From positions 6,015,661 through 6,079,660 of the forward strand of contig CP099851.1 of NCBI GenBank assembly GCA_030062745.1: a DNA stretch of 64,000 nucleotides, in the 5' to 3' direction. The position numbers and the translations under genes are program-made. Shown here piece by piece: positions 23,770-61,800 of this stretch. The number at the start of each line of letters is the position of its first letter. The stretch's first letter is position 1. The notes below the pieces were generated by a model, which saw nothing but the letters and a program-made list of their open reading frames with translations, was not told the DNA's origin and ran no database searches. This DNA is from Capitulum mitella (Eukaryota > Arthropoda > Thecostraca > Pollicipedomorpha > Pollicipedidae).

Positions 23770-23802
<33 letters not shown>

Positions 23803-28419: not shown

Positions 28420-30160
28420 TCACTGTCTCTCCTGTCGTTTCTGCTCGTCGGTCATGTCTTGCTCCAGCCGGCGGCGCATCGCCTCGCGCTCGGCCCTCTT
28501 CAGACGTCCGGGCGGCAGCGGCTGTGTCGTGTCCACCAGCACTGACAGCGGCTCGTCGTCCGCCGCTGAGGACGACGTCGTCGAACTCGGCTCCTGCACC
28601 TCCTGTGGCAGGTCAGAGGTCAGGTCCGCACCTCCTGTGGAGGGTCGGAGGTCAAGTTTGTGCCCTGTGCAGCGGTGGGCGGACGTCAGGTCAGCACCGC
28701 CTGTGGAAGGTCAGAGGTTAGGTCTGCACTTCCTGTTGCAGGCCAGAGGTCAGGTCTGCACCTCTTGAGGAAGGCCAGAGGGTAGGTCTCCACTTCCTGC
28801 GGAGGGTCAGAGGTTGACTCTGCAGCGGTCAGAGGTCAGGTTTGCGCCGTCTATGGAGCGCCGAAATTCAGAGCGCACTTAAATTCTTAGATAATCCTCT
28901 TCATATACAGCAAAGGAATTGAACAGGGTTCAACAGTCAGGGAGTTTGTGCTTTGCCCGATACGTTCTAGGGACCAAATCGCCAAATTTCAGATGTTTGA
29001 TGTCAACGTTTAATTCATTCAGCCCCGGAGAGCGGCACGCTCGGAACTCCGTTGTGAAGGAATGAAGCCTTCCACGGACGTACTGCATGACGACAGGCGG
29101 CGGCATGTCGGAAAGCAGAGACGGTAGCGGAAATAGAACGCCACTGACCTAATGCTTACCCTCGTTATGCTAAAACGATAAAAACCACTCTCTCTTCGAG
29201 TCCTCAAATATGGCGGTAATACGTTCTGACGAAAAAAAACTCGTAATACCGGAAAGAAATGCCATGATGCTAAAGAACACCCATTCGATACCTAGAATGG
29301 TTGTTTTTTTAACGGCTGACCAATAAGGGTAGCACAGTGTTACCGGTGCGATTTCATAACTGGTCCAGAAAAGGTGAGCGTGACCTGAACGGCCACTAGT
29401 AAACAAGAAAATATCACCACAGTTTAACCGTGAGACTGCTGTAGTTTAACTCACAGCCAGCAGGTGTATTAATCTGGCACACTAGCCTACATCAAAATCA
29501 GCAGCTAAAGATTATCCCTGGGCTGGCTTACCTTCCGCAGCAGACTCGAACGAATCCTTGAACAAATGAAGCGGTCGAGCATTACTGTAACAGTCCTCTG
29601 GTACATCATGACGAACTAGTGCCAGTGAGACACACGGATGGCGCCAGGCCAGGCCGACATCGAGAGAAATCAATGCCGCATCCCGCAGCTCAACTGCTGG
29701 CACGTAATCCACGTCCTGTGACAGGAAACGGTCTGCCTTGATTCACTCCCTGTCCGCGCATAAAACACCAATCATTTGCTGGAGTCCACGATCTTTCTCA
29801 CCGTGTACCTGTCGGAGTCCGCGACCTTTTTCATCGCTTTCTCGCTGGAGTCCACGACCTTTCTCATCGCGTGCCTGCCTGATCCACGACGTTTCTCTCC
29901 GTGTGTCTGCCGAAGTCCGCGACCTTTCTCACCGTTTGCCTGTTCGAGTCCGCGACCTTTTCCACCATATAGCTGCCAGAGTCCTCGACTCCGCTCACCG
30001 TGGTGTTGCCGGAGTCCACGGCCCGTGCGTACGCCTGCTGATCGGCTGCCGACAGTCCGGTGACGATGAAGTAAAGCCAGCTGACGATGACGGCGACCAC
30101 CGTCAATGCGCAGGTCATCATCAGGTACCAGCTGCGGGTATTGGGTACAACGTCCGTCAT
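28420..30160 (-). CDS. Unrecognised single-pass membrane protein (three exons seen, at least one missing)
   Basis: Exon 1 is 30,160-29,999. ATG is followed by TDVVPNTRSW and a clear membrane segment (LMMTCALTVVAVIVSWLYFIV), then a short stalk ending VDSGNTT at donor ACG|GTGAGC. Exon 2 is 29,715-29,532. A good acceptor (TTTCCTGTCACAG|GAC) leads into DVDYVPAVELRDAALISLDV and ends SFESAAEG at GAAG|GTAAGC. The last exon is 28,593-28,420. Acceptor GTGCAG|GAG leads into EPSSTTSSSAADDEPLSVLV and a basic helical tail (KRAEREAMRRRLEQDM) ending DEQKRQERQ stop. Phases match between exons 1 and 2 (0/0), but exon 2 ends in phase 1 and the last exon starts in phase 0, so an exon is missing or the last exon belongs to another gene. 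A topology with a short cytoplasmic N-terminus is inferred. I cannot name the family. Minisatellites abut the exon 1 donor and the last-exon acceptor. Confidence 0.5.
28590..28850 (-). repeat. 32 bp minisatellite made of copies of a 3' splice site
   Basis: About eight units of 32 bp lie just upstream (minus sense) of the exon starting at 28,593. Read on the minus strand each resembles ACCTCTGACCTGCCACAGGA then GGTGCAG, and the last unit is the actual acceptor. So each unit carries a CACAG or GCAG that could serve as a 3' splice site. Confidence 0.8.
29770..30010 (-). repeat. 33 bp minisatellite made of copies of a 5' splice site
   Basis: About seven 33 bp units (one of 32 bp) extend from the end of exon 1 into the intron. 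In minus sense the unit is like GTGGACTCCGGCAGACACAC then GGTGAGAAAG, so most units keep GGTGAG, the donor sequence used by exon 1. Because 33 is a multiple of 3, the reading frame stays open through several units as V-D-S-x-x-x-T-V-x-K until a 1 bp deletion near 29,885. The peptide repeat may therefore be a by-product, or retained coding sequence. Confidence 0.75.
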
Positions 30161-31693
30161 CACAGAGTCGAGCTCAAGGACTGCCTACGGTTTCTGCGCA
30201 GCACTGTCACCACGCCAGCGCACGTTTTGCAGCAATTTTGCACACAGATGCCGAAAAAATGGCTGATGTGAATGTAATTCTACAAAAGTGTCTTTTGCTC
30301 CGGGTTCTTGAATCTTCCTTGCTGGCAGTTCTTTTGAGACTGCAATCCGCGCTTCCATATAGGTCAAGAGAGGTCTCCTGTATACAACAGGCATTTGACC
30401 GCTGACGCCAATCCCAAATGCCGACAGTCACGGACCGTCCGATTTTCACGCCCGACACTGGTGTGGGCGGAAAGCCCGGAATGAAGGAATGCTGACCATT
30501 GGGACCAGTGGTCTTCAGGAGCATTTTAATATGCGAGAACGGAAACGAAACCGTCTGCATAAAATGAGGAGCGTAGCAAACAATGGCAGAACGTTATTTA
30601 TCGGTACCGCAAGTGCAAGACATTTTTCCAGGGTCGTCTAAGGCATACATGATAAGGCAAAGAAACCATGGACAAAAACGACAGATTACACAGATTGCAA
30701 TGGTGGCCATGCTGCATTCCGGTGGCCTGGTTATCTTCAGATATGTAGGCAGGTTATTAATGATGCTGTAACACGTACGTGCAAGAATTGAGGGTGCTGT
30801 GACTGGCCGTGGTGGCCGGAGACGGATGGCTTCAGACGGTGGCGGAGTGGTATGTGAAGGCTCTGTGCGGCGGAGAGTCAAATAAAGTGGTTCAGTCCCC
30901 GTGATAGATGGCCAAAATGAGAAAACTAAATATCAGATACGAAAAACATCCATCTCTCCTATCCAACCCTGGCGGGGGGGTACGGAAACCATCGAAATTT
31001 CCGGGCTGCGCCGCATTTTTCCATTTTTTTGCTGATTCATTTCAGGCTGAAAGTTGCATTTCCGTCATAAACCCTGAGGTACCACGCTGAACAGATTTCT
31101 CAAAAACGGTGTTCAGAGGGCTGGACGAAGTGCATTATCGATGCGACGTGCGTCTCTGCTCTCTGCAGACCATCGGCGGACGCAAGTAACTGTAACAGTT
31201 ACGAGAAGAAGTACAAGTGGCAACGGGACAGAACTCAGCTGTGATGCTGCGCCACATTCCTCCCAATAGGAGAACCAAAAAGAGTAAAGAGTAAATAAAG
31301 ACGTAATAAAGACTTAAGTGAAGAGTAAGTAATCTGAGGAGTAAAGGCGGCGCGGACTGGACGATTAAGGGACAACGAAAGAGTCCTAGAAATACGGACA
31401 GATATCGAGGCAAACAAAAACAAAAAGCTCTTGGGCCTGTGAAAAAATAAGCAAGAAACTTTATGACCAAGCCCCTGAAGGTAAGAGATTGAAGAAGCCT
31501 TTTATGGTCTTTTCTCAAGAGTAGAGTTAAACAGACTCGAACATAAGAAAATGTAATGTGCCACTGCATTGCCCCAATGCACCGTCCATCCATCTCGTGA
31601 AAAGCAAAGAACAAGCGACACACCTGTAAGCGCAGGCCTCTGCGTTATGATTCATGATAGCCAGAAAGATGGCGTCGTTGACGTTGCCCTTAC
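30161..31693. other. No gene recognised
   Basis: A 162-codon minus-strand frame (31,623-31,135) is hydrophobic and low in charged residues. It has no recognisable domain and no matching phase with the exon at 31,694-31,791, so I treat it as chance. Confidence 0.4.
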
Positions 31694-31791
31694 CTGGTGT
31701 TGTCCCACAGCACGGAGAGGAGCACTTTCCAGGCCAGCGGCTCCCTGGCCAGCTCCAGCGTCGACCACAGACTGCCCAGCACCTCCGGCAT
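31694..31791 (-). CDS. Possible first exon of an unknown gene
   Basis: An ATG at 31,791-31,789 opens 32 codons (MPEVLGSLWSTLELAREPLA and WKVLLSVLWDNT) ending at a strong donor, CCAG|GTAAGG, in phase 2. Composition is protein-like (amphipathic, few rare codons). An in-frame stop lies about 60 bases upstream, consistent with an initiating exon. I could not find the partner exon. The GC-rich sequence to its right (31,800-32,300) has open frames on both strands without recognisable content and may be its promoter region. Confidence 0.35.
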
Positions 31792-34700
31792 GTTCCAGCT
31801 CCCCTCCCGCCTCCGTAAACGAGCCGCAGAGCTGCCCGGGCGGCCTCACGCGCTGGCAGACAGTGCTCAACCTCAGCTCGAGGAGCGCTCTAAAACGTCG
31901 CCGGCGTGCTGGTCCGAGTGTGCAGCGAACGTCTGAGTCGCTGCGCGGCGGGCCAGTGGCCGAGCTCGAATCGTCGACGACAGAATCCAAGCCGTCGCTT
32001 AAGATGTCGTGTCGCAGGACGCTCGGCTACGTCGCCGGCCCGGCGCTGGCCGCGGCAGGAAGCAGACCGGTCCCCGTCGTCGCCGACGCTCGGCCTGTGG
32101 CAGCGCGTCCGAGCGTGCCGGGCGTCCGCTGCCTGCCGACGTCTCCGCCTCTCTGTCGGGCTGGTGCTCGGACCTGGCGCCCCCCGACGCCGCCTCTCAC
32201 AGGCGGCCCGGCCGGAGCAGGCGCTCAGGCGGCGCCTCGACTGCCGGAGCGTAGGGACAGACACCTGACCGCCGCAGCACTGCCTGCGGGGGGGGGGACA
32301 TGGGCCTCCTGGATACCGTTAAAGCGGAGTTACGGTGAGGCATGGGAAAAAAACAGACAAACTTTTGTTCCTTAACTACCCTTGAAATAATCTCGAGTTC
32401 TTTACAAATCCTAGACCAGACCAGTCAAAAACCTATAAAAAGGCAGGCAGTTATGGTCAGAGAAATAATTCGAATGCCCGTTGACCGAAATGTCAAAAAA
32501 AGCTGTAACACGTCAGCAAGATGCTGCTACTATTGTTTTAAATGCACCAGTCGAACTGCGTAAAATTTCGTCTTTTCAGCATCAAACCAAGTGCAGCAGA
32601 AGTGATCAGTCATGCCACGTTCCCACAAAATTGCAGCAGCGGCCACAAGCAACAGACTCTCCGAAGAGCGCTGTCAATAGCCCAGGCTAAAGCCACGTTG
32701 TAATAATTTTTTAGTATATTTACCACATCATTATACATCACAGCAAGACACGGAAATGTAAATTTGTCGCCGCGTTTATCATGGACCAGCATTCGCGCGG
32801 TCACGACAATGACGCATGCCGTGTGACCATCACAGGCTGCCTGACGGCATCCAGACCAACAACCGACAGGCAGATAGATGCAGTCCCCATTCAGCCCCAC
32901 ATTCGGCAATTTAGTTCGGAGCGGGAAGGGGGTTGGCCCACCACCACCATAGCGTAACAACGACTGAAGTCGTCCCGGGACGAGCCAGGCCATTGCAGCG
33001 ACTTATCAGGGACACATTACCGGTGCTTCGAGACATCGAAAACACGGGAATGGTGCCATGCCCCTGAAACTTTTTGCAAGTTATCATAAAAGTTTCGAGT
33101 CAGCCATAGAAGTGTCTCCGATCGCTCTGAATTTTGGCTTAGCATTATTTTCACTCTTGTTACATATTTTCCGAAAACTTACGTTCTTTTGGAATCAGGC
33201 CACCAAACTATGATGTCTTTCTCGAAGAAATACCACGGAGAAATTATGACACATTCGTCATCATCAAACGAAAGTTTTAAAAATTTGGCAGTGTTCAGTT
33301 TTCTTAATCTCATGCATGGGTTTCATACATGGTATCATTGGCCTCCACTTGGGTGCTTGCTTCAGTAAAAGTCATCGTAGATGAAAAAATATGAGTTGAG
33401 GCCATTACCGACTCTTTTTGCCTTCACTTGACCTAGGATGGACCATTGAATATTCGAACGCACCGACCTGAACAGTAACAGTAGTTTTAGTCCCCGTTCA
33501 TTTTCAGAGGTCGTTTGAGACTCTCAAAAACGTCCTATAGGTTCCGTCCCATAGGATCCAATGGTAACCAGAATCCATCGACGTGACTCCTTTGTAGTCG
33601 CCTAAAGCCATCATACGACTGAAGCCAGTTTGCATTGCTGTAGATGTAGGAGCCGGAGAGAACAAAGGGGACTTGTACCACCATAGTTTGACTCGTGGTG
33701 CGGAAGCTCTCACCATGTCACAGCAAAAAGAAACTTGGCTTTTAGAGAAAACTAAAAAAAACGCTTCTTAGGCCTGATCCAAACCGTGGCCGGAATCCGG
33801 GAAGCTTTTTTTGCGGGGGACAGCATTTCTGACCTCGTGAGCAACAATCAACTTCCAGGTGCCCCTCTCCCATGTACAGATCAAGCAGCCCTCGTGGACT
33901 CGGTGCCCCTAACAGGCCGTGTCCTGATACAGACCGGGTAACCATCACATGCTCGGTACCCCATACAAGCCATGCACCCCTTCCCCCCAGAGATGAAGTG
34001 TCTGAAGAATGTGGTGCCCTACAGAGAACGTCTACGAGGCAGGCTCTCTTTACAGGCCAGATGCCCCTGTATAAACCCGGGGCCCCTCATGTGCTGTGCA
34101 CCCTTGGTGAGAGCAACGCCTTCGTACAGATCAAACTCACGTCACATACTAGACGCTCCTGTACAGACCGGGCGTCCTCACGGGATTCCAGCAGCATTTA
34201 TCATTAAGGAGGTGATATTTAAAAAGCACGCTCTTTAAAGTGATGCTAGGAATATCAGTAATTGAAGTTTCCCCATTTGGCACAGTATATGCGTTTTCGG
34301 CGAAGAAATACCTCGTTTCAAAAGACAGTGCACAAGAGGGGGTCTAGAGTAATATGTTTAGTGCAAATATGTCAATATGCATGTAAACTACGAATCCCAT
34401 TTTACATGAGCGTGGGAACACGGGGGCGGAGGCCATGCCCCCCCCCCCCACTAGTTGGAAATTTAACATTAGATCTATGGGGAAAGGCGTCTCCACCCTC
34501 CCGCTGTTCTGCATGTTTCTACGTTCCTGCCATTTTAACTAAACGGCGACCCACCTGGAGATCGGTGGCCTCCTTGGAGATCGGCGCCGCCTTGGATGAA
34601 TGGTCCCCTTCCGCACTTTTCGTCACGCTGCTTGCACCACTGCACAGGGGCGTTTTTGCCCGTCGCGGCGGCAGCGTGGGAGCGCTCTATTGCACATTTT

Positions 34701-36991
34701 ACCTGGCACACAAGGTACTCGGGCGTGGAGAGCCGGCATCATTTGCGACCGTCTTCCAGCCGAGCAGTGCGACGCGAGAACGAAACACGAGGCAAGACTG
34801 GTTGTTTCGAGCTCCACGCTGCAGGTCAGGGGCTGGAGGGCGGCATTTCAGTGTCAGAGCGTCCCCTCTATACAGCCGGTTTCCCGCTGATCTGACAGCG
34901 AAGCGCCAGCAGAGCTTCGCACACAGTAAAACAGATGCTGTTCAGCTCGATGACGGATTAAGATTGTGACTGCTTTTATGATGTGTACGCACGATGTGTT
35001 TTTGTGTTCGCATGGTTGTGCGCATTTTCCCTTGCGTTAGTTTGACTCAGGGTCGTAATGGCCTCTGTGCCAAGTGGACAATGCCACGATTGTAATACAA
35101 TATAATACAATACAATGCAGCGCCCCGCAACAGCCCGCGAGAGTCGAGACACGTGTGCCTACGTCGCACGTAAGTCATATGTATCATGGCTATGGCTCGA
35201 CCAAGTTTCCTCCAGTACGGTTATTCGAAATTTCGAATCCGATTACGTTTAACTTGAAGTCTTGCGTTTCACCCGGTGCAGTAGGCCGGGAGCCTGTTGG
35301 ATTTGCCGCGCGATTGGCCTCCTAGTTCCAGGCGATCGCTGATTGGCCAATGCTGCGAAACTGTCATACGATAGGGACCGACAGAAATATCCCAACACCT
35401 TGACAATATTGTCCGATTATGAGACGGCATCCACGGATGACGAAAAGGATCCGATACAAAGAAGAATTCACGCAACTTTCTATTACTACCCTTTGTTATA
35501 TTCGCATAGGTCCAACAGTTCCAGCGGTTCAACATTACAGATTTGTCCTGGCTTTGGAGCTGTCATGACTGGAAGAAATGATGAATATGACAAACGTTTC
35601 GCCTGACAGATCGTTCAGGTTTTCACAGTTTCTATGAGCCCCTTTCGCTCTACTGTCATAGTGCGCTTCCGTGCCATTCTAGTTCTGCCATGCATTTAGG
35701 ATGTAATTTTTTTATCATTTGTGACTGTCGGTACCATCCCTAGGATGACCAAAGACTCCTAAAAATTTACTTTGTATCATAAGGTGTTTTGCAATGCATG
35801 CAAGATTTGCAAATTCTATGAAATTGTTTGCATGTATAGTTCTGCATTGATGAGTTTATTCCCGACCTTGTTTTAGTGTTCTGTATCGGGTTCATGGTGT
35901 TATCGGTTTTGTTGACGTTGTACATCACGGTGCAACACTGCGAAACATTTACCAAACTTATTTTTTTGCAAATGCCTTCTATCATTTGATATTCTTTGGT
36001 TTGTCTTTCTTCCTGTCATTTCAGGTTTTTGTCATTATATCATCGTTCTGACGATCAGAATGGACCTACCTCCGACACGTATCAAGAAAACTGCAAATGT
36101 CGCATATGTATGGCACTGTGCACGTACTACAAAATGTGCAACCCTGAGGATAGCGGATACAAAGTGATACTCATCGCCGCTTCCAACGATTAAAAATGGA
36201 TAAGCTGAAAATATTTTGGAAATGTTGCATATGTTGCGTAATTTTGCAAAGCCCAATACTGGCAATTGTTTCGTCTAGAGAAGTAAACAATATCGTGATC
36301 GTGTTCATGAAATCAAAATCTTTCAAAACAGTCAATTTCCGACCAAAAAATGTACAATGCTGAACATGTTTCAAACCAAAGATACATGATTTAGAGCGCC
36401 TCTGTTCTCCACCTTGTGGACGATGTTGTAAGACACGTGCAAAGGCAAATTTAACGCTGACGACGCTCCGAATGGATAAACTTTACTTCCAAAAACACTG
36501 CCAAGCTCTTGTTATTGGATGCAATACATTTCAATGCGACCATACACCTGGATGTTTCGAAGGCAAGGAATGTGATCTAGGAGTTAAAATGCATCCCGGT
36601 TTAGAAAGACAGGCACCGTTTCAGAGTTCATGTTGGCTAAAATGCGCCCGACTTAAAATGAAGCCAAATATTTTTTCAAGCCAGACACGGTTCATATTCA
36701 CCTGCACCAAATGATCATTTCTGTGCGGACTGTGCTGCAAAAGGACTGTGACCACCAATGCGATCGTTAATGCGTTGTCAAGCATGGCAGTGATGAGTTG
36801 ATGTAGTACAGAAAGTTCAATGCCATTTCACCAAAGCTTATATATGCTGTCTATTTCAACAACACGGACGTATAGTGGTTGCTCATACCAATAGGTGCAA
36901 TGCCCCAAATCAGCATTTTTGATTATCGTGAAACATGGTAAATCTATGTCACTGTATGTAATCACATGCCGTGCAAACATACCTCTATGTT
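31792..36991. other. Intergenic, no gene recognised
   Basis: Apart from the GC-rich patch at 31,800-32,300 I see only short frames. Homopolymer C runs occur near 34,440. Nothing matches other repeats in the window. Confidence 0.45.
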
Positions 36992-38150
36992 TTAACCTAT
37001 TCCCGGAGGGCTGGACGGTATGGCCAACTCCCGGGCAGGGGGGCGGATTCAGTCCCCCCTGAGATCTCGAGAACTACGCATCCGATTTAAGCGAAACAAA
37101 CGGCAATCGATTTGCAATAACGTCAAATGCATTTCTATAGAAACATTTCCAGAATTTTGAAATGGGTGCATACAGGCCAAAATTCAAATGGGGGATGGTT
37201 TTGGACTTGTTATTTGTTATTTATGGACCGATTCTGATGACATTGGCATGAATCGGAAGATTATGGATGGGACTTGAACCATTGGTCATTTGGGATTTAG
37301 AGAAAACTCATAGGCGCCCATAGGGTTTCAAAAATGGTAGGATTAGTTTTTCAAAAATTGAATTAACAAAAAAGTTAAACACCTTTGGATTCTACTAGTC
37401 ATATGATGCCAAAGAAGTGCAAATCACAATGTTTGTATAATGTTAGCATAGGCGGTGCCAGGGACATGAAAAGCGAACTGTCATGGTCATGTTGTTGTCA
37501 TGTCATGGTCATGCTGACCTGAAGAACATGTCATGTCATACTGTTCAGGTCAACTTAAGACCTTTCGCCTGAAATGACCTTCAGTGACCTTAGGGTCACT
37601 TGGAATGATCTTGTGTGCATTTTGTATGGTTTGAAAACGTTTCCAATCATTTCAATATGCTCTATTTCTAAAATTCCGTTTTGCGGCTGTTGTGATATCG
37701 GGCACGCGCATTGACATTTTAGGTCATAGCTCCGCAGATTTGGCATTTGAAAAAATGGCGCCAAAATCATTACTATGAAACCAAATTTTGATTTTTGACT
37801 TTGACCTGACCTTCTGCAGTGGCCTCAGACGAACAAAACTGTATTTGTATGTTGGCCCACTATGTACCTATACATCCATATAAAAATTTAAATTCTATCT
37901 TAAAAATGCTATTGTTGGCAGACATTTTCCTGTTACCCTCAACAGGGTCAAAAATGGCCGGAGGTGCCTCCCAAAAACCTTGTCTGGCACCGCTCCTGAG
38001 TAAAATGGAATTACGAAATTTTGTTGCAATACGTAGAAAAATAACTGGGAAAAGTGACTAAGTTTCGTGAAGCTGCGTCAAAAATCCTGAAATTGGCAAG
38101 CAAAAAACCCGAGGGGGACGGATTCTTCCCCTTGCCGAGAATAGGGTTAA
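36992..38150 (+). mobile_element. TTAA-family-2 non-autonomous DNA element, complete copy
   Basis: The unit begins TTAACCTATTCCCGGAGGG and ends CCGAGAATAGGGTTAA; the reverse complement of the end is TTAACCCTATTCTCGG, so both ends are inverted copies of about 15 bp flanked by TTAA. Subterminal GGGGGCGGATT / GAATCCGTCCCCC sequences are also inverted. A second, interrupted copy lies at 40,064-42,490. The interior has no transposase. It includes a patch of CATGGTCATGT-type short repeats (37,480-37,550) and GACCT/AGGTC words. Confidence 0.8.
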
Positions 38151-49392: not shown

Positions 49393-49695
49393 GGCTGTGC
49401 CCTCCGCTGACCATGGCTCGGAGGGCCGGGGTCCGTACAGCAGGCCGTGCCCTCCGCTGATCATGGCTCGGAGGGCCGCGGTCCGTACAACAGGCCGTGC
49501 CCTCCACTGATCACGGCTCGGAGGGCCGGGGTCCGGACCTGGCCGTGCCCTCCGCTGATCACGGCTCGGAGGGCCGCGGGTCCGTACAGCAGGCCGTGCC
49601 CTCCACTGATCACGGCTCGGAGGGCCGGGGTCCGGACCTGGCCGTGCCCTCCGCTGATCACGGCTCGGAGGGCCGCGGTCCGTACAGCAGGCCGT
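49393..49695 (-). repeat. 48-51 bp minisatellite repeating the last codons and stop of the adjacent gene
   Basis: About six units run 3' of the Armadillo-like gene. In minus sense a unit is CTGCTGTACGGACCGCGGCC then CTCCGAGCCGTGATCAG and GGAGGGCACGGC. The first unit encodes the gene's end (HGLLYGPRPSEP stop), so all others are copies of coding sequence plus stop. Two unit variants (ending gtccgtacagcag versus gtccggacctg, plus sense) alternate, giving a dimer period of about 98 bp. Confidence 0.85.
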
Positions 49696-52600
49696 GCAGG
49701 ATGGCCGCGTGGTTGTTGTCCCAGTCGGCCCAGAGCTGCTCCTGGTCGGCCAGCGCCGCCAGCATGCGCTGCAGCGCCTCCAGCCTCCGCAGGTACATCC
49801 ACACCTGGGGACGGTTACAGGTACATCCACGCCTGGGGACGGTGACGGGTACATCTACACCTGGGGACGGTGACGGGTACATCCACACCTGGGGACAGTG
49901 ACTGGTACATCCACACCTGGGGATGGTGACAGGTACATCCACGCCTATGGACGGTGACTTGTACATCCACACCTGGTGACGGTGACTGATGCACGCCTAC
50001 CTGGGGACGGTAATGGACACAGGCATACCTGGGGACGGTGACGGGTACATCAACACCTGGGGACGGTGGTGGATACAGCCGAACCTGGGGACGGCGACTG
50101 GTACATCCGCGCAAGAGGAGAGCAACGGATACATCCATACATGAAATTCAGACGAATGCGTCCACACTGGTGCATTCCCCCCCAAAAAAACCGTTTCCAG
50201 GCACAGATAAGACCGAGAACTTGAATGCGCTCTAATTCCAAGACTACAATCCATCCAACGCTCGGCGAACATTAGTTTCGTTAGCTGCGGTGCATTCCCG
50301 ACTCGTTACAACGCTGGGATGGAGGGGAGGTCGTGGTCTGGACCAGTACTGGCGCCAGATGGCCCGAGCTCTGGTCCGATGGGCCGTGGCGGGCCGCCAC
50401 TCACCTCCGCATTGTCGGCCAGAAGAACAGAGAGCGTGTGGCAGGCCCAGCGGGCCAGCGTGGTGTTCTGGCCGAAGTTGTACACGCACTCGACCAAGGT
50501 CTGGACGCCGCCCTGCGCGTGAAGCTGGGGACGGGAGAGGCACGAACGAGAACTCAGCCGGGGACCGAACAAGTGCCGATCAGTGTTGAGCGGGGGACGG
50601 CAGAGACACTGGCCAGCGTTCGGCTGGCGACGGTGCTGCCTGCGGCGATCAGCAGGAGATGGGGCGGACAGCAATCAGCTGCCGAGGACATAATCTGCCG
50701 AGACGGGCGTTCAGCTGGTGACGGGACGCACTGGCCTGCGCTCGCCTGGTAACGTGATAGAAGCTGTTTGGTGTTCAGCCTGGGACAGGGCACAGTTGGT
50801 TCCATACTCGACTGAGATCAGCGGAGCCGACTGGGTAAGGATCTCTTATGCCTGCGACGTAACACCGGTGTGTTACTGCCGGGATATTGCTGCCTCCCGT
50901 TTGGCTTTCCCTGCATAACGTCCAGAAAATTAAAAGTCACCGCCTTTAACCGTCCAGCACCAGCATCCCTATCTGAACAACATAGCCACATGATGACAAA
51001 ATGTATCTGACCAGGTCATTGGCCAGATCATATGACGTCATGTTCGCAATCATAAATGCCGGTTACGGGCACTTTGCGCCCTCTTATACGTTTTTATAGA
51101 CTTTTTGCCTTGAACATGGTTTGAAAAAAAAACTTGAGCGTGAGCGTGACGCGACGACAGAGACGAAATAGAGCGGCAGCCAAACGTCAAAAATGTAGAG
51201 AAAAGGGATAACGCAGTTTTGTTCGGAGCATGGCAAGCCCTAGTTTGACAGAGTGTCAAATTCGATCAAATTATAAATGCCGGACAAATGTCGAACGAGG
51301 CGATCTGTGCAGAACTTGGCCGAATGACACTTCCTGCACGACTTCATTGCTTCCTTCACTTCACTTCACTGCGCGACTTCGCTGCAGAACGAACGTGCGT
51401 TCCTACAGGCGTGTTCACTGTCGCAAAACGCACGCGACATCGTGCGTTCTGTCGGACCGCACTCAAATCGGATCAAATCGAAGCCGGCCTGCGTCTACAT
51501 CACGCTCACTTGGATGAACACAGAGGCCAAGCATACGGCCATCTGTTCATATGTGACCAAATGCGAGATCAACGATGGTCACTCAATAGCTTGGCGGGGT
51601 GCTGATTTAGCACCATATGTAGCTACATTGAGGCAATGTGGCTCTTGCGACGAAAGTGTGAGAGATGCAGAAAGGGATCATTATTTTCAATGTCGCGTGT
51701 AATTTTATTCCAAAACCGTGCAGGTAATCAAAGTATTATTGAATTCACTGGCCTGGCGACCTAGGTGACGTCTAACCACTCTGCAATAACATGGTGCGAA
51801 GTGGCAAGAGAGATTCGTCTGACGCAACATATTTCCGGTTCTTGTTATTCTTTCATCCTCAGTGTGTTTCTGAAGAGGTCGACATGTTACCGTCAATTGC
51901 GGGTTTTGATCTGATCATGACATCATGGACCTTGAGGTCTGAAACGGGACATACGTAGGGTTTCAGGGTGACGGGCTATCGATTGCCGTTTGAATGAATG
52001 AAATCTGGCCATTGGTTCTTGAGACATACAGGAGAATGTTTCCACAGTAACCGGAAGGTGAAAAAACACCATCGATAATGCCGTTCGCTGAGTCTCCTCT
52101 TTCGCGACTCGGCAACTCACCAGACATAGGCCGTCTGCATCTTTCTGATTGATCTGTTTCACTTTGTTGGTCCTGTCATTCCGCCCAAAGATGGCCGCTG
52201 ACCGGATGTTGACTCTCTATGACATGTGGCCTACTGAGACCTGTTCTGCCCGCGTCGACCTGCACTGACCGCAGTAACCTCTAATGACCTAATGTGGCCT
52301 GTTCTGCCCGCTGTGACCTGGACTGACCGGCTGTGACCCTGTGACCGTAGACCCACTGACCTGTACTGAGTGGCCGTAACCTGGACTAACCCAGTGGACG
52401 TTTTCTATCCCCTGTGACCTGTGCTGGCCGCTGTGACCCTCGCTAACCCACTGTGACTTGTTCTGCCTCTCTGTGACGACAGACCTACACGCTGCACCAG
52501 CAGCCCTTGCCGTGTGACCTTTACTGACCCGCTGTCCGGGGTCCGCGCTGCACCAGCACACCTCGCCGATGGCTTTCACGGCCAGCAGCCGCTGCTCTTC

Positions 52601-55600
52601 GTTGCAGGTCGGGTCACGCAGCACGGCCAGCAGCGCTTCCAGCGAGACGTCCAGCATCGACGTCATCTGGGCGCCGGCTGAGGCGGGGAACGGATGACGT
52701 CATCAGGGCGGCGGCTGAGGCAAAGCAAAGGTGACGTCATCCGGCCGCCGGCCTCACAGAGGTGACAGATGGCGTTATATGATAATCAGAGGGGAGAAAT
52801 TTCACTTGCACACTAGGCCAGCGGGGATACGGATGACATTAACGTAGCCTGGTTGCTGGTTTGAAAAACGGAGTCCCCACGTTTGACTGACTACTGATCA
52901 ACTTTTTGAGACGGCACTTCCAATACAGACTATGCCCAGGCCAGCTACGCCTTTTCTGTGGTATAGACGGCCGGCAACCACCGGTTTGACGGGTCACTGA
53001 CCCACCCGGCCGTCACCTGGGTGACGGGTCACTGACCCAGGTAGAAGAGGTGTCCCAGACTGGCTATGGCCTCTTCTCTGGTGTGAACGGTCGGCTGCCG
53101 GACAGCCTGGACCACACTCTCCAGCTGCCTCCAGGCGGCCGACTCCTGCGGCTCCTCGCCGCGAATCACATCCACCAGGCGCAGAGTCTCTCTCCTGAGG
53201 ACACGGTGGGTCAGAGTCTCCCTCCTGACGACATGTGGGTCAGGGTCTCCTTCCTGAGGACATGTGGGTCAGAGTCCCCTCCTGAGGACATGGTGGGTCA
53301 GAGTCTCTCCCCTGAGGACATGGTGGGTTAGGGTCTCCCTCCTGAAGACATGGTCGGTCAGAGTCTCCCTCCTGATGACATGGTGGGTCAGAGTGTCTCT
53401 CCTGAGGACATGGTGGGTCAGGGTCTCCCTCCTGAGGACATGGTGGGTCAGAGTCTCCCTCCTGAGGACATGGTGGGTCAGGGTCTCCTTCCTGAGGACA
53501 TGGTGGGTCAGAGTCTCCCTCCTGAGGACATGGTGGGTCAGAGTCTCCCTCCTGACGACATGGTGGGTCAGAGTCTCCCTCCTGAGGACATGGTGGATCA
53601 GAGTCTCCCTCCTGAGGACATGGTGGGTCAGGGTCTCCCTCCTGAGGACATGGTGGGTCAGAGTCTCCCTCCTGAGGACATGGTGGTTCAGAGTCTCCCT
53701 CCTGACGACGTGGTGGGTCAGAGTCTCCCTCCTGAGGACATGGTGGGTCAGAGTCTCCCTCCTGAGGACATGGTGGGTCAGGGTCTCCCTCCTGAGGACA
53801 TGGTGGGTCAGGGTCTCCCTCCTGAGGACATGGTGGGTCAGAGTCTCCCTCCTGAGGACATGGTGGGTCAGAGTCTCCCTCCTGAGGACATGGTGGGTCA
53901 GGGTCTCCCTCCTGAGGACATGGTGGGTCAGAGTCTCCCCTCTAAGGACATGTTGGGTCAGAGTCTCCCTCCTGAGGACATGGTGGGTCAGGGTCTCCCT
54001 CCTGAGGACATGGTGGGTCAGAGTCTCCCTTCTAAGGACATGGTGGGTCAGAGTCTCCCTCCTGAGGACATGGTGGGTCAGAGTCTCCCTCCTGAGGACA
54101 TGGTGGGTCAGGGTCTCCCTCCTGAGGACATGGTGGGTAGGAGCCCCCCTCCCAAGGACATGATGGGTCAGAGCCTCCGTCCTAAGGAGATGGTGGATCA
54201 GATGTCTCCTTCCTGAGGACACGTTAGGTCAGAGCCTTCTTCTAAGGACCTGATAGGTCATAGCTCCCCCTGAGGACATGGTAGGTCAGAGCTCCCTCCT
54301 GAGGACAGGGGGCGGAGATAGAGTATCTCTCTTGAAGACAGTTGAGGAACGTATGGGGTCAGAGTCTCACTCCAGGGCGTTGGAACCGGGGGGAGTCAGG
54401 AGAGATAGCTGCCCCAACTTTGGGCAACATTTAACATAACCGTACGGCATTGTGTGGAAGGAAACGAGATAAAACTCGCGTTTGCCCCCCCCCCCCATCT
54501 CCAGAGGTTCCACCGCTCCTGCTCCGGAGGACAGGGATGGGGGCTGCTGAGGCTGAACACTCAGCCTGCCACCTGAGGACAGTGTGGGATCGATTTCCCT
54601 CCTGAGTACAACGTGAGGTAAAAATGCATCTCCTATGATGGTAGTGTGGGGCTATATTCACCCCGTGTCTCTCGTTGGAACAAGGTAGGAGCCAGTGTTT
54701 TTTGAGCACTGGGTTTATTGAACGTTTTTTGACAGGGACAAGATGGGGTCTTGGTGTCTCAGTTTTGGAGCCGTGTGTCAAAAGCCGCACCCCACCTTGA
54801 AAATAATTATATTGAAACTGACACAAAGGGATAAACCTGGTGCACGACCTCGAACATGACATTTCTACTGGGTACAGGGGTTAAGTCGAAGGCTCATCAA
54901 TATCAAGGCTGTTTTCTGTTTTATTTTCGGACCGGGATACATCATGGATTGGGACTCGTGAACGGAATTCCTATTGGTATCTATCCGAAAACGATGTAAG
55001 GGAATGTTTAATGCCAACCCTCAAGCTCTTGTAAAATTGCAAATTGGCTTTTACTGTCCAATTGTCATCGTCCCGTTTTGTTAACTAGAGGACTTGGCAC
55101 CACGTTCTGAATGGAAAAAAAAAACGCCACTTACACCCAAACATGTTTTCGCGGACTTTGGAGGCGGCTTTTGGTCCACACAGTGTTAGACATATTGTTT
55201 TCTAAACATGACTTCCCTGGTGCGCAAATACCAGTAAGATCTCAAATCATTGTGAAGTCAATTGTAGCACGAAAATTCACCATGATATCCACATTGCTTA
55301 CAATATATTTTTACATATTTCGATGATTTTATTTTACACGCCTTCTAAGTCGTATAAATCTTTTCTGCAGCTGAAACTTCTCCGATTTTCAACCTGTTCA
55401 AGCCCAGGATTTGTGTCTCCTTCATAGTTACCGGTATTCTCGAAAGCCCCATATTGAAATCTCCACATTGCTGGGACCAGTGACGCTAGAGTGATGCAGT
55501 GAGACCAGGGGCTTTGGAACCTGGGAGAAGGGGGGGGGGCTTGCGGCCCCTCCCAATTTTGGGCAACATGTAACGTTAACGTTATGCCGTTGCATGGGAA

Positions 55601-56043
55601 GAAACGTGATAAAAATCATATCTGTCCCCCCTCCATCTCCACAGAGGTTCTACCGCTCCAGTGAGACCGATAATGGTCTTGCTTTTGTTTGCGCCAGAAG
55701 TGTTTACGAAGCAAACGAGGTGATTTTTAATAAGAATACACAGCATGACAAGAATGCCGCCCACGTGGTCTTTGGGTAAGACTGAAAACGGTAGCGAAAC
55801 GTCGTGAACGAGTGCGGGCGTGGCCTATTGGCGTTACTCGCAGTCCGTCGCAGTTCGGGCACCCTGCGGCAGCGTCCAGGTCCAGGGCGTGGCTTACTTG
55901 TTGTAGTTTTGCACGCGCGACGCCTCCGGGCCCGTGTCGAGCTGCGCCAAGTCGGACAAGATGTCCCGGTACTGAGCTCGCTTGGCGGCCAGCAGGTCGG
56001 CGTCCTCCGCGCGGCGACCGGCTCTGTTTTCGGACGCGCTCAC
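49658..56043 (-). CDS. Armadillo-like helical protein, 3' five exons
   Basis: Five exons with matching phases are seen in minus order. Exon 1 is 56,043-55,898 (acceptor GCGCCAG|GTG, donor CAA|GTAAGC), encoding EDADLLAAKRAQYRDILSDL and EASRVQNYN. Exon 2 is 53,194-53,037 (TCCTCAG|G; CTGG|GTCAGT), encoding RETLRLVDVIRGEEPQESAA and TREEAIASLGHLFYL. Exon 3 is 52,677-52,529 (GCCTCAG|CC; GCGG|GTCAGT), encoding SLEALLAVLRDPTCNEEQRL and KAIGEVCWCSADPGQR. Exon 4 is 50,524-50,405 (CCCCAG|C; GGAG|GTGAGT), encoding HAQGGVQTLVECVYNFGQNT and WACHTLSVLLADNAE. Exon 5 is 49,804-49,658 (CCCCAG|GTG to TGA), encoding VWMYLRRLEALQRMLAALAD and ending YGPRPSEP. The helical pattern with GGVQTLVE and ARWACHTLSVLL resembles ARM/HEAT-like repeats, but I cannot assign a named family. 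About 240 residues are seen; further 5' exons are not found in the window. Exons 2, 3 and 5 are flanked by minisatellites derived from their own borders. Confidence 0.7.
49794..50129 (-). repeat. 28 bp minisatellite made of copies of a 3' splice site
   Basis: About twelve 28 bp units lie directly upstream (minus sense) of the last Armadillo-like exon. The unit is CACCGTCCCCAGGTGTGGAT then GTACC. The terminal unit supplies the used acceptor CCCCAG|GTGTGGATGTACC, so every unit repeats a CCCCAG and the first codons of the exon. Units furthest from the exon are the most diverged. Confidence 0.9.
50525..52199. other. Intron of the Armadillo-like gene
   Basis: This is intronic. The 250 bases next to exon 4 (50,530-50,760) contain loosely repeated GGGGACGG/GCTGG words in plus sense and may be a decayed splice-site minisatellite like those at neighbouring exons. 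The remainder shows only chance frames. Confidence 0.45.
52200..52528 (-). repeat. Degenerate repeat resembling copies of the exon 3 donor region
   Basis: Minus-strand words like GGGTCAGT-x-AAGGTCACA and CAGGTCACAGCGG recur every 20-50 bases from the exon 3 donor (GCGG|GTCAGTAAAGGTCACA) outward. The array is old and irregular, and the plus-strand text reads as repeated 'ctgtgacctg(t/g)actgacc'. Confidence 0.55.
52665..52760 (-). repeat. Two to three copies of the exon 3 acceptor region
   Basis: In plus sense, gatgacgtcat followed by c(t/a)ggg and a cggctgaggc word occurs at about 52,667, again at about 52,695, and partly at about 52,730. In minus sense this repeats the GCCTCAG acceptor and the first codons of exon 3. 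It looks like an early-stage tandem expansion. Confidence 0.6.
53190..54300 (-). repeat. 30 bp minisatellite made of copies of a 3' splice site
   Basis: About 33-36 units of 30 bp run from the acceptor of Armadillo-like exon 2 outward into the intron. In minus sense the unit is CACCATGTCCTCAGGAGGGA then GACTCTGACC. The terminal unit is the real acceptor TCCTCAG|GAGAGAGACTCTGCG. From 53,281 to about 54,149 there are 29 units in perfect 30 bp register without one indel. Long frames on both strands (up to 317 codons, for example repeated MVGQSLPPED) are produced by the array and are not genes. Confidence 0.95.
54375..54522 (+). mobile_element. hAT-like MITE, copy 2
   Basis: Starting near AGGGCGTTGGAACC and ending near GGTTCCACCGCTCCT, this copy matches the one at 55,507-55,660. 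It lies at the distal end of the 30 bp minisatellite. No target duplication is obvious. The rest of 54,523-55,498 is intronic with no feature I can support. Confidence 0.65.
55507..55660 (+). mobile_element. hAT-like MITE, copy 3, with 8 bp target duplication
   Basis: The 154 bp element starts AGGGGCTTTGGAACC and ends GGTTCTACCGCTCCA. The reverse complement of the end, TGGAGCGGTAGAACC, matches the start at about 10 of 15 positions. GTGAGACC flanks both sides exactly (55,499-55,506 and 55,661-55,668). Eight-base duplications and short inverted ends fit the hAT superfamily. It is far too short to encode a transposase. Confidence 0.8.
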
Positions 56044-58548
56044 CTGGCGCCGCGCAGACCGGAACCGTCAGCTGTCTCGCGGTCTCGCGTGTCAGTTATG
56101 TGTCTCAGTCACCTGCCTCAGCCATGTTCGCAAATATTAATGGTATGAGTGTGAGAGAGAGGTGTAAGACCTGTCCAGTTAACTGTCTCACAGGTCTCGG
56201 CCATCTCTCTTTTGGAGGGGTTGCGCGGACCACCGAGTCACATGCCCAAGAAAAGTGTATTGGCTACTTGTCTCTTAATTGAAATGGCACGCATGTGCAG
56301 TGAGCTGCCTGGCCAGTCTGGGTTGTCTCGTAGGAACAGCTTCGGAGGAAGAATCTTACGTTGTTTGACTCAGGCAGTTCACATGAAGTCGTGAGGCACA
56401 GCTCAGTAAATTGGTTGCCCCCGGCCTCATGGGAAGCAATTAGCAATCAAAATTAGCACAGTTCGTGCGCTGAGAGAACCTTGAGGTCCTTGGGAGCGCA
56501 GAGATTTAGGGCTTTTAGCGAGGATTATGGTATTAAGCACCGGAGGCCTCCGAGAAACTGCCGGTCGCCTGGTCATAAGCGTCGAGTAAAAATAAACAAA
56601 AAAAAAACAGAACAATGCACACAGAGGTCCTGTTTCTATGCCGTAATGAGCGAGTCTAGAATGAAACACGATATTTCTCACCGATATCCGTTTCAACTTC
56701 TCCATTTCATAGAGTGCGTAAATGTGAAAATTTCTACAGCGACAGAACCTTGCGTAAGATTGAGCCAAAGCTGAATGTGCTGTTTTGCATCGAGATTAAT
56801 ATACAACAGGCAGTCCACATAACAGGAACTGGTTACAGAGCTTGCGTAACTTTCTGCACACTAGTATACATTTATTTTAGCCAGTTACGTAGAAAGATTA
56901 CTTGAGGCTAAAGATTAGCTGACAGAGCCTGACGACATAACGCAGTGAGTTGATTTATTTCTTAAGAAAACGTGAGGAAATGCGGTGCTCTGCCTCTCTC
57001 GCCGTTCAAAATACTTCATCAGTGCGTTCAGGTTCAATGCTAATGTTACAATCATGTACGATATAAAATGCACGGTTTGACGGCGAGCTTTTTTCATGCT
57101 TGTTCATCGATGCTGGCCCGATAGATAGTACATAAGAACAACCACTCTTCTTCGGTTCATTAGTCATAAGGTCCTGCATATGCTCTTCTATCGGTCACAA
57201 GTTTAAGTACATTCATGTTGCTCTAGCATTCATCGACTTCTAGTACCGATGATTAATCAAGGTATAAAGGCATCAGCTATCTGGACACACAGTCTGGAAA
57301 CACACGTAAATTCAATTACAGTTTCTTTTGACCCGTTCTAGCCACTTCGGAGCCGTTGGATTAAGGAGAGGGGCTTGAGCCATGGAATGAGTGGTACTTT
57401 ACTTGTGCCCTACATAAACTGTTTTGTGGATGCACATTGGGCTCGACTATGACGAGAAGGCAGACAGGAAGCTTATATACCCTACAATGCGCAACAATGT
57501 GGACAGGAAATGGAAGCCAGTCTGTAGTGTCATTTGTTAACCAGAGATCACGAATTTCGTTGACGGGCATCTGATCAGTTGCTGACATTGCGTTTTACTC
57601 GAGACTGACAGTTCCCGCGCATCGGACCACGTACGCCAGGCAATTAATTCTAACTGTGCGACTTCATGAGGCGGACCATTTGAAATAGTCCGATCGGAGG
57701 GATCTAGGAAAGATGATAAAACGTAAATGACGCCACAGAGTACCAGCTGCTGAACACAACGGTGTCCCTGCTTTCCTCCCTAGCCTCATAATTCGCCTGT
57801 CCGTCGGATTTCTTGCTTTACCACCGTGAAAACGGTCAAGAAAGCCACGAGCACCCTTCTACCTGCGAAACTGCTCTTCCTTACAATTACACCCACAAAC
57901 ACAAAGACAGCATTCCCCAATGAGCTGTAATCGTCCGACTCGTCCAAGATCGTGACCGTGAACGGTACAAACACGAATAAACCACGCATGCATGTTCTAT
58001 AAAAATACGATAGCGGAATCCAATTGAGAGGTATAAAAAGACATCGATATCACAAGCCATCTTCTAAAAGCCATTTGATTTTATGCAACGACATACGCCA
58101 TACAGAAGTACTGCAATAAAATGTGAGGCAAAGCGGCGAGAAACGACCAAAGCCATGGCGAATTAACAAAACGGCTCGCAGTTCAACCGCCTTGGAATAA
58201 CTGAAACACGGAACACGACGCCATGCACCAATTGCACTGATACCCGCTAGCAGCTGTACCCCTCCCCCAACTGCAAACACCACGAACCATCTACGCAACA
58301 ACTGTACGGAATAAAAATACCGGAACTGACACAGGCCTAATGTAATCACGTGAGTGCCTGCTCATGTTCAACGATTTGCATTTCACAATCCATCATGCAG
58401 TTATGGCACGGTAATATAAACATACTCGTAGACGTAAAACTCCCGACGTCATATCACAACACATCTCAGTAACCATGCATAGATGTTTCCTGACGTTAAC
58501 ACAAAAGTTTCAGGTATCGATCAGCTAGAGGCCTTCCTAGCCGTTTCA
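56044..58548. other. No exon recognised; 5' side of the Armadillo-like gene
   Basis: Upstream exons of the Armadillo-like gene should lie here or farther right, but none could be supported. A minus-strand frame at 58,349-58,050 is hydrophobic and Arg/Phe-rich without a domain. No repeat from elsewhere in the window is present. Confidence 0.45.
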
Positions 58549-58870
58549 CCTATACATCAGGTTTACCCCGTGCCCCGCCGTGTTGTCTCTACCTCAGGTG
58601 CACCCCCTGTCCTGCCTCTACATCAGGTGTGGCCCTGCTCCACCTCTACATCAAGTGCGCGCCCCTGCTCCACCTCTACATCACGTGCACCTCTGTCCTG
58701 CCTCTATATCAAATATACTCCTGCTCCATCTCTACATTAGGTGTATCTCTGTCCCGCCTCTACATCAAATGTACCCCTGCTCCACCACTACATCAGGTGT
58801 ATCTCTGTCCCACCTCTACATCAAATGTACCCCTGCTCCACCTCTACATCAGGTGCGCGCCCCTGCTCCG
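58549..58870 (-). repeat. 28-29 bp minisatellite repeating the end of the FTCDNL1-like coding region
   Basis: About eleven units lie 3' of the FTCDNL1-like gene. In minus sense the unit is CACCTGATGTAGAGGTGGAG then CAGGGGTA. The unit nearest the gene contains the codons for AHLM and its stop (TAG). Distal units carry variants of that stop region. Confidence 0.85.
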
Positions 58871-61800
58871 CCACGCCTCGCCGTCGCCTAGCCTCAGCGC
58901 GTGCCACGCGGCCTCGGCCGCCGCCTGAGGCGTGTACCCGACGACCCTGGAGCCGGGCAGCGGACGGACGCCGGCCGGCCGGGCCAGCTCCGTCACGCGC
59001 CGCTCGATCGTCACGGTCGGCGTGACGAAGCCGCCCAGCACAGGCTCGGCGGCGGTGCCGGTCGGCTCCGGCAGGATGTCCACGTTGCAGGCCACCTCCA
59101 CGCGGCCGCGGTGGGCGAACGCCATCGCCTGCACGCCTGCACGGTCAGACGGCGGTCTCAGAAAACACCCGGAAGGACGGCGATGTGCAGCTAGGACGGC
59201 GGTGTGTCGCTGGGGCGGGAGGGGGGGGGGAGTGTACCGCTGGAACGCGAGTGCACTGCTAAAACGTAGGTGGCCGTCGCTGGCGGTAGTGGACAGGTGG
59301 TGGCATATCTACTCCAGTGCGTACAATGGCAGCTGCTGCGCCTTCACGCTCGTCTGGGCACCTCGGTCAGCATAAACAATCATATGCGGTGTCGGGATAT
59401 ACGGAAACAACTAAAAATGTCTACGGGCGATTAGTCCTGTGCGGTAAATTCATTATGACTGCCGTGTTTTACGTCGCATCGTGTGATGGTGCTTTGGCAT
59501 GTCTGCCAGCACGATGCTTCCAGAATACTGATTGTTAACGATAAGTCTGGTACGCAAAAGGAAGCATCATGTGAATAACTCACGTTAAAAAACTAGTCAT
59601 TTTACCTACTCGAAAACAGCGCTACCGTAGGTGGTAAGAGGAACTGAGGTTAAGTTTATTTCTAAGCCATAACATTAACATTAATCTTATTAGCATATAA
59701 ACTTTCCCCTTAAAGCAGTGCAGCCACCGAATGCCGTAGCTTCAAGAAACTTAAGGGGGCGTATTTTTCCGCATCACTACGTCGGAGGGACGAATTCAGC
59801 ACGAAGTCACCAGACGAGACTGTCGTACCTGGCAATCCTCCTGGTGTCTTGCCGCGTATTTTGTGCGCGATGGACTGGCCTAGCTTCAGATCACTACTGT
59901 CTAGCGTCACATTGTAGTTGGTCATGTACGGTATGGCACCAAAACCTGAAAAATATACCAAGGAATGTCATGTACTCTCGCCACAAATCTTTTTGTTTGC
60001 GCCCCCCCCCCCGCAAGCCCGCCCCCCACCAACCGCATATACACAAAACACATTACAGGATGGAGTATCCAAGCGCCGTTGCACTTCAGTGGCAACTGTC
60101 GTCGCCATAATGCGCGCCCTGCCAACTGAATCCCTCCATTCCGTGCGCCCGTGCCAGCTCAGCTGACCTGTGGCTCCGAGTCGGGAGTCATGCCTGCTCT
60201 GCTGACCTGTGACTCTGGGCTGGAAGTCGTGCCACTTTGCTGACCTGTGACTCCGAGTCGGGAGTCATGCCTGCTCTGCTGACCTGTGACTCTGGGCTGG
60301 AAGTCGTGCCACTCTGCTGACCTGTGACTCCGAGTCGGGAGCCATGCTTGCTCTGCTGACCTGTGACTCTGGGTTGGGAGTAATGCCACTCTGCTGACCT
60401 GTGACTCCGAGTCGGGAGTCGGGGGCGCCGACGTCCACCTGGCCTAGCTCCGGAGTGCGGTCGAACCAGCCGAGTTGGCGCCGCCTGAGCGGCAGACTGC
60501 GCCGCAGAGGGTCGGCGGCGCCGAACCAGAATCCGGCCGAGCCGGGCACCTCGGCCGTCAGACGCAGGCCCACGGCTGTAGGGCAGCGGCACACAGGGAC
60601 TCAACCGGGGCTCAGGGCTGTACAGCAGCGGCACACAGGGACTCAGGACGGGTCTCAGGGCTGTACAGCAGCGGCACGCAGGAGCTCAGCACGGGTCTCA
60701 CGGCTGTACAGCAGCGGCACACAGGAGCTCAGCATGGGTCTCACAGCCGTACAGCAGCGGCACACAGGAGCTCAGCATGGGTCTCACGGCTGTACAGCAG
60801 CGGCACACAGGGACTCAGGACGGGTCTGACGGCTGTACAGCGGCGGCACACAGGGACTCAGGACGGATCTCAGGGCTGTACAGCAGCGGCACACAGCTCA
60901 GCACGGGTCTGACGGCTGTACAGCAGCGGCACACAGGAGCTCAGCACGGGTCTCACGGCTGTACAGCAGCAGCACACAGGGACTCAGGACGGGTCTCAGG
61001 GCTGTACAGCAGCGGCACACAGGAGCTCATCACGGGTCTCCGATCTCCCGGCCCTCGTAATGGTGGCTGGCCCAGCCACCCTCGCATTCGTGGGAGGTGG
61101 GGGTGATGGGTTCCAGTCCCCAATCCAACTTCTGATCCCCGGGATGGAACCAAATCAACTTGGCCATTGGCATGCCCACGTAATCACTGTCTGTCGAAAT
61201 GACTATGCCAAACGACTATGCTAATGCTCACTCTACACTCAGTACAGCTGGGCCTACAAGCCAAGCTCCAAAACAACCACTCGTGCGCTTTTCACGGAAC
61301 AAACTACAACATTCCAAAACATCGGACTTGCTCCACTCTCATTCAAGAGGAAGAACAAAACGGCAGCCAGCTTGACAATAACTACGCCGCAGTTGCACAG
61401 AAAAGACAGGAGCTCGCAGTGAAATCTGAGTTCACTCTTCACATAAACAGAACCTACAACCTCCTCACCCCATCATCCACAAACGTGTCCCCTTCGTCGC
61501 CCACTAGCATGCGCGGCTATCAACCGCGTATGCTTGGCAATGCACAGTCTCCAACACAGAAACCGACTCACCTCTGGCCAGCGCGCCGCACTCGTCCAGC
61601 GTGGTGTCCGCCGCCAGAGGGTGGACGGGCACCAGGTCGACGGCGCCCAGCCGGGGGTGGCCGCCCCGCTGGTGGTTCAGGTCGATCAGGCCGCACGCCG
61701 AGCGGCACAGGGCCAGCACGCTGGCGCCTGGTCGGACACCCCTGCACCGTCAGACGGCTGACCACGGCACCGCACGGGTCGGACGGCGTCGTCCTCTGGC

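Follow-up and report, generated by a model that had tools for sequence, protein, structure and literature searches.

In a stretch of 64,000 nucleotides of the barnacle Capitulum mitella (hereafter the window; contig CP099851.1, positions 6,015,661-6,079,660, from an assembly of 477 Mb in 16 contigs), three neighbouring genes, MXRA7, an ARMH2-like gene and FTCDNL1, carry tandem arrays lying across the ends of their coding stretches, and nine of the ten arrays named in an earlier reading of the window (the original prediction) contain a splice site or a stop codon. Repeats of this kind are known from lancelets as 'mirages', and we consider that the barnacle arrays are probably mirages too, forming a dense cluster drawn from a genome background rich in minisatellites. 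The arrays at exon ends are real; the other genes sampled lend no support to mutation specific to such edges.

Three kinds of evidence fix the borders of the three genes, all on the minus strand: reading phase, the GT-AG signals, and the way in which the products align to barnacle proteins. The splice joins are GT-AG and phase-consistent.

27402-31791, minus strand: MXRA7 gene; exons 31791-31694, 30131-29999, 28602-28424 and 27513-27402 (stop).
49658-56037, minus strand: ARMH2-like gene; exons 56037-55898 (5' end left approximate), 53194-53037, 52677-52529, 50524-50405 and 49804-49658 (stop).
58844-62443, minus strand: FTCDNL1-like gene; exons 62443-62170, 61727-61572, 60575-60399, 59945-59829 and 59136-58844 (stop); the acceptor at 62443 was read off the printed sequence, and a start codon was looked for in this first exon and not found.

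The closest named relatives of all three spliced proteins are barnacle proteins. The MXRA7 product matches the Pfam family MXRA7_helical (E = 4e-17) and is 78% identical to MXRA7 of Pollicipes and 63% to that of Amphibalanus; the ARMH2-like product matches PF17822 (E = 2.6e-8) and PDB entry 9lwo_B (E = 1e-4), with 61% identity to a Pollicipes pollicipes protein; and the FTCDNL1-like product matches PF07837 (E = 2e-32), with 60% identity to Amphibalanus amphitrite and 44% to a lancelet. The barnacle homologues align in register over the array-bearing junctions, with no extra units (NYNK|RETLRL, FYL|AGAQMTS, ADNAE|VWMYL, LARA|VGLRLT, LGVT|GFGAIPY and NTT|EVQEPSS), and the two C-termini that lie inside arrays, those of the ARMH2-like and FTCDNL1 proteins, stop near the same place as those of the homologues. 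Because of this agreement, the exon-proximal copy of each border is presumed to be the one used in the transcript, and the other copies to be decoys. The Pollicipes ARMH2-like and MXRA7 proteins (P0064 and P0072) both list a longest contig of 36,889,919, which suggests that linkage of these two genes is conserved there.

Tandem arrays were called with Tandem Repeats Finder (TRF), which gave 42 rows in the window. Rows scoring below 100, which were for the most part short repeats or simple, GC-rich sequence at 21.5-24 kb, were left out, except for 52234-52338 (score 71), which the original prediction had named. All ten arrays of that prediction are confirmed by TRF, and a decayed array at 50524, outside both the TRF list and the original one, is added here.

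28594-28814, minus strand: about 32 bp × 7, over the 3' splice site of MXRA7 exon 3 (border 28602/28603); AG intact in 4 of 6 decoys.
29777-30020, minus strand: about 33 bp × 7, over the 5' splice site of MXRA7 exon 2 (border 29999/29998); GT intact in 3 of 6 decoys.
49393-49697, minus strand: 50-53 bp × 6, over the ARMH2-like stop codon (TGA) at 49658; TGA intact in 4 of 5 decoys.
49792-50108, minus strand: 28 bp × 11, over the ARMH2-like 3' splice site 49804; AG intact in 10 of 10 decoys.
50500-50800 (extent by eye), minus strand: decayed array at the ARMH2-like 3' splice site 50524.
52234-52540, minus strand: diverged array at the ARMH2-like 5' splice site 52529 (TRF row 52234-52338 plus diverged copies); GT intact in 6 of 10 decoys.
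52659-52752, minus strand: 37 bp × 2.5, over the ARMH2-like 3' splice site 52677; one decoy, AG intact.
53182-54307, minus strand: 30 bp × 38, over the ARMH2-like 3' splice site 53194; AG intact in 36 of 37 decoys.
58587-58855, minus strand: 28 bp × 9.5, over the FTCDNL1 stop codon (TAG) at 58844; TAG intact in 9 of 9 decoys.
60150-60420, minus strand: 38-39 bp × 7, over the FTCDNL1 5' splice site 60399; GT intact in 6 of 6 decoys.
60571-61040, minus strand: 43-44 bp × 11, over the FTCDNL1 3' splice site 60575; AG intact in 9 of 10 decoys.

When the TRF arrays are set against the independently fixed borders, five 3' splice sites (28602, 49804, 52677, 53194 and 60575), two 5' splice sites (29999 and 60399) and two stop codons (49658 and 58844) fall inside them. 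Two further splice borders, in addition to these seven, lie in repeats recognized through diverged copies. The TRF array at 52234-52338, the tenth of the original prediction, excludes the donor at 52529, but 10 diverged copies of the donor region (58-84% identical) lie in the next 300 bp, compared with a shuffle mean of 0.6; the acceptor at 50524 has three border copies within 900 bp, compared with a shuffle mean of 0.4 and a maximum of 2. The acceptors 50524 and 49804, which belong to adjacent exons, have the core CCGTCCCCAG in common, and the two arrays may therefore be related. The donor region at 53037, of the ARMH2-like exon 53194-53037, recurs once as a strong match (score 18) within its 359-bp intron. 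Two arrays of score at least 100 contain no border: a 122-bp duplication in MXRA7 intron 2, and one at 24.7-25.5 kb that lies within a long reading frame. This frame, of 1203 codons (22657-26268, minus strand; no Pfam match at E = 0.01), has a repeat of 33 bp, a multiple of three, at 24728-25511, which is perhaps a minisatellite surviving within coding sequence.

Arrays had been predicted to start exactly at exon ends. The borders do lie inside the units, and from the exon the arrays reach as far as 1.1 kb into non-coding sequence; the starting point was less exact, because the arrays also run 4.5-39.5 bp into the exon. Most decoys carry an intact signal (AG in 59 of 63, GT in 15 of 22 and a stop codon in 13 of 14, the single decoy of the 52677 array being outside this count). 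The arrays vary in state, with that at 53194 (38 copies) at the homogeneous extreme and that at 50524 at the decayed one; those at 52529 and 50524 are nearly erased, and array age therefore varies. The 30-bp copies of the 53194 array are uniform along its middle and have decayed towards the far end, which is the pattern expected of unequal exchange. No relationship between the units of different genes emerged, in agreement with the original prediction: comparison of the ten units in 45 pairs gave a lowest P of 0.004, or 0.17 after correction, and one spreading repeat family found no support in these comparisons.

Arrays placed at random in the three gene spans would contain a border in 3.8 of the ten non-coding cases of score at least 100, compared with nine observed (P = 1.5e-4). 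A null that asks whether the founding unit of an array contains a border (the seed-unit null), applied to 11 arrays, namely these ten and the weak one at 52234, gives 1.1 expected without GC matching and 1.7-1.8 with it, again with nine observed (P = 4e-7 to 6e-7 with GC matching; 2e-8 to 6e-7 over all variants). If only the top-scoring TRF row of each array is used, the rule applied to the other genes below, the count is 8 of 11, because the top row of the 29.8-kb array stops about 9 bp short; of the TRF rows for this array, one ends at 29989, short of the border. A scan made without TRF found at least three copies of the border's own 30-bp sequence in the next 900 bp at 10 of 29 borders, but at only 6/400, 10/400 (matched for GC context), 5/400 and 5/400 control positions (Fisher P = 5e-8 or less). 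The controls excluded positions in, or up to 30 bp from, arrays and borders, as well as the stretch at 20-27 kb; in low-complexity, GC-rich sequence at 20.5-26.5 kb, 68 of 100 positions pass with at least three copies, so the criterion is meaningful only outside such sequence. All P values for the window ignore the fact that it was picked for the pattern.

Two other features of the window lie apart from the arrays. A fourth gene, GGACT (gamma-glutamyl cyclotransferase-like; plus strand, 47.7-48.55 kb, two exons, Pfam E = 9e-19), has a join ending in AG with a GC donor (AG|GCGAGT), and none of its three borders has repeat copies. A weak GIY-YIG match at 2632-3093 (plus strand, E = 0.008, under the Pfam cut-off) is possibly a retroelement endonuclease.

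Dense minisatellites are normal in this genome, because twenty 10-kb stretches at round coordinates fixed before looking (199.5 kb) hold 26 arrays of TRF score at least 100, or 130 per Mb, compared with 172 per Mb in the window. For a sample of other genes, coordinates were taken from exon matches of the CCT (61 matches), proteasome (25) and kinesin (129) families, of which we used 59 CCT matches in 10 stretches (two of them probably one gene), 18 proteasome matches in 8 and 36 kinesin matches in 7. The seven kinesin genes were picked for compact introns, which lowers the chance of seeing arrays, and their stretches hold two arrays, neither at a border. In these 25 gene stretches, 203 splice borders (138 + 65; no stop codons among them) were placed automatically, 88 of the 138 resting on resolved junctions and the remainder being set at whichever site close to the end of a domain scored best for splicing.

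Five of the 21 arrays in this sample contain a border, or six with relaxed array ends, compared with 3.5 expected under the seed-unit null without GC matching (P = 0.24 strict, 0.10 relaxed) and 5.5 with it (P = 0.70 and 0.49). The six, in CCT and proteasome genes, are as follows (gene-strand coordinates).

L027, 5038-6145: array at donor 5038 of a CCT gene, a resolved junction.
L027, 6728-7234: array at donor 6748 in the same stretch, a resolved junction.
L024, 2404-2811: array at acceptor 2777 of a CCT gene, a resolved junction.
L028, 3216-3790: array at a border placed by splice score alone.
L025, 6491-6661: array at a border placed by splice score alone.
L039, 197-408: array at a border placed by splice score alone.

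A comparison of arrays with borders elsewhere in the genome had been set beforehand as the check on the original prediction; run on these 25 stretches, a small sample, it shows no clear enrichment, and the general process at exon edges that was proposed did not find support. Nor are arrays tolerated only at exon ends, the other suggestion made, because 15 or 16 of the 21 are without a placed border. In the CCT genes, the border-copy count shows no difference between borders (5/62) and controls (47/423, not cleared of arrays), and in the CCT and proteasome genes borders lie inside arrays less often than intron bases do (3/107 versus 9.6%, P = 0.013); both tests count expanded array bases as background, and we judge the seed-unit null the fairer. 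All the tests on sampled genes point away from a strong genome-wide border excess. Per border, the window lies far above the sample (9/29 versus 6/203, P = 6.6e-6), as it does when the stop codons of the window are left aside, the sample consisting of splice borders only (7/25 versus 6/203, P = 9e-5). At the sample rate of 6/21, at least 9 of 11 has a probability of 4e-4, and about three of 7450 windows of this size would be expected to reach it; at the lower rates of 5/21, or 9/47 with the arbitrary stretches included, the expectation is 0.6 or 0.1 such windows. Thus either the window is an extreme, singled out after the fact, or the region is locally hot.

Several results weigh against a passive, background origin of the cluster. 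The border excess of the window stays large after GC matching, and chance combined with loss of coding copies predicts the window only if it was chosen for the pattern. In the arbitrary DNA, 5 of 26 arrays have a predicted border, compared with 0.7-1.1 expected (P = 1e-4 to 0.002), a result that is indicative only, the codon-model exon finder having recovered 64 of 77 exons and 66 of 88 borders, with 10 extra predictions, in cross-validation. Two of these five arrays are themselves called mostly coding, and a stricter cutoff gives 2 of 26 (P = 0.09-0.23); two of the five lie at Pfam-supported exons, at the acceptor of a filamin-repeat exon (L006) and the donor of a CBM_14 exon (L020). The gene sample and three arbitrary-DNA cases together give nine border arrays, compared with 4.1 expected (P = 0.03), or 6.6 with GC matching (P = 0.22). 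Finally, splice and stop positions in the decoys are kept slightly better than other positions (0.92 versus 0.85, P = 0.035), a weak hint, and one that a passive model does not need. The small samples allow a border excess elsewhere of up to about twofold, not the fivefold of the window.

It seems most likely that GC-rich minisatellites arise throughout this genome and that, in some, the first tandem duplication by chance straddled the end of a coding stretch, be it a splice site or a stop codon. The exon-proximal copy would be under selection and remain the one used, while extra copies would accumulate on the non-coding side; there, slippage or unequal exchange may expand and homogenize them before mutation leads to their decay. 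Such growth would lengthen introns and 3' untranslated regions, and copies entirely within coding sequence would be lost unless in frame. We rejected hairpin-driven slippage as the source of expansion, because, under RNA parameters, dimers of the units fold no better than their shuffles (z between -1.5 and 2.6) and show no strong hairpin tendency. The same absence of a strong hairpin tendency, together with the finding that only 5 or 6 of the 21 arrays in the 25 gene stretches contain one of the 203 borders (3.5-5.5 expected), tells against a duplication process acting at coding/non-coding edges, in which template switching at exon ends, prompted for example by R-loops, nucleosome edges or a pausing polymerase, makes border-straddling duplications far commoner than others. 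We regard such a process as unlikely, although it would account for the excess of 9 of 11 over 1.7-1.8 in the window, for the stop codons being hit as well as the splice sites, for the same arrangement in lancelets and for the five predicted borders among 26 arbitrary-DNA arrays at the lax cutoff. A wider version, to which we give rather little weight, holds that coding edges, whether splice sites or stop codons, are mutational hotspots of tandem duplication in some animal genomes, with separate origins in lancelets and barnacles, driving the growth of introns and 3' untranslated regions outwards, with hot regions such as the window.

Selection might instead favour the extra copies, as back-up splice sites or stops or as regulators of splicing or read-through, and the many decoys with intact signals, together with their slightly better conserved splice and stop positions, could be read in this way. 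However, use of a neighbouring copy would shift the frame by one unit of 28, 38, 43 or 50 bp, intact signals are expected anyway in young, homogenized arrays, and many signals are lost at 52529 (6 of 10 intact) and 29999 (3 of 6 intact), all of which makes selection for the copies quite improbable. An artefact of assembly or annotation is scarcely credible. Assemblies are known to go wrong at tandem arrays, and the borders rest on sequence, phase and protein homology rather than on RNA, but the copies differ in sequence from one another and arrays of this kind are present on other contigs as well.

Growth of introns by the arrays is plausible: arrays make up 15-55% of eight of the ten introns measured (a figure that includes the diverged stretch at 52.2-52.5 kb and the 122-bp duplication in the middle of an intron, with the first MXRA7 intron outside the set), and two FTCDNL1 introns are without arrays. 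The original prediction had coupled such growth with intron gain in progress, through tandem duplication of AG|GT segments, and this second part was not supported. AG|GT is present in some units (49804 and 60399), and tandem duplication is a recognized route to new introns (PMC3443670, a review). An intron born in this way would start with copies at both ends, and in all 11 introns compared, the donor end bears no relation to the acceptor end (80 bp each; lowest P = 0.08), although old introns could have lost the likeness; the units of the two arrays in MXRA7 intron 1 are likewise unrelated (P = 0.46). Because, in addition, the homologues show no added units and sequence outside the arrays accounts for 45-85% of each array-bearing intron, we ruled against gain in progress, and with two of the arrays at stop codons we give it hardly any credence.

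A search for literature on minisatellites in the introns of barnacle genomes found none, and neither a search on crustaceans and splice junctions nor one on acceptors gave a further border-spanning case recognizable from the listings. A paper on another barnacle genome (PMC8270832) describes many repeats and extreme nucleotide diversity, and its main text does not use the word 'minisatellite'; an earthworm metallothionein gene has minisatellites inside an intron, with no border-spanning units in the text examined (PMC12783039). Human genes in segmental duplications have internal tandem repeats at exon-intron boundaries (PMC2812944), which, like the barnacle arrays, are minisatellites of about 30-bp units at borders and alter intron length; however, the human cases concern recent paralogues, with transcript evidence for new introns, whereas the barnacle arrays are known from genome sequence alone. 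The arrays also share tandemly duplicated sequence with AG|GT with intron gain by tandem duplication (PMC3443670), but they extend introns or 3' untranslated regions, and no new intron is seen.

The original report on repeats of the lancelet kind is said to concern Adh (Nucl Acids Res 2002, 30:2871), and the RdRp gene of potato is reportedly a case of intron gain by tandem duplication. Lancelet mirages are tandem repeats over exon-intron boundaries in Adh3, the globins BflGb6 and BflGb9, TnC and PGBD5 (PMC3087553, PMC3902484). As in those genes, the barnacle repeats are tandem minisatellite arrays with a unit spanning the 5' or 3' exon-intron boundary, many units, but not all, carry AG or GT, and the units differ between genes. 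Unlike the lancelet cases, they affect three adjacent genes and stop codons too, they are described from the sequence of one assembly rather than with reverse-transcription PCR or polymorphism data, and their host is a barnacle, to judge from the closest named proteins, a difference of taxon and not of mechanism. The kind of arrangement is therefore already known from lancelets; what is added is a crustacean case, with several arrays per gene in three adjacent genes and with stop codons included. Because arrays lie at stop codons too, their cause does not have to involve the splicing machinery. With its chromosome-scale assembly and densely spaced minisatellites, this barnacle would offer a test system for intron lengthening, and one in which the choice of the spliceosome among up to 38 near-identical acceptor sites could be studied.

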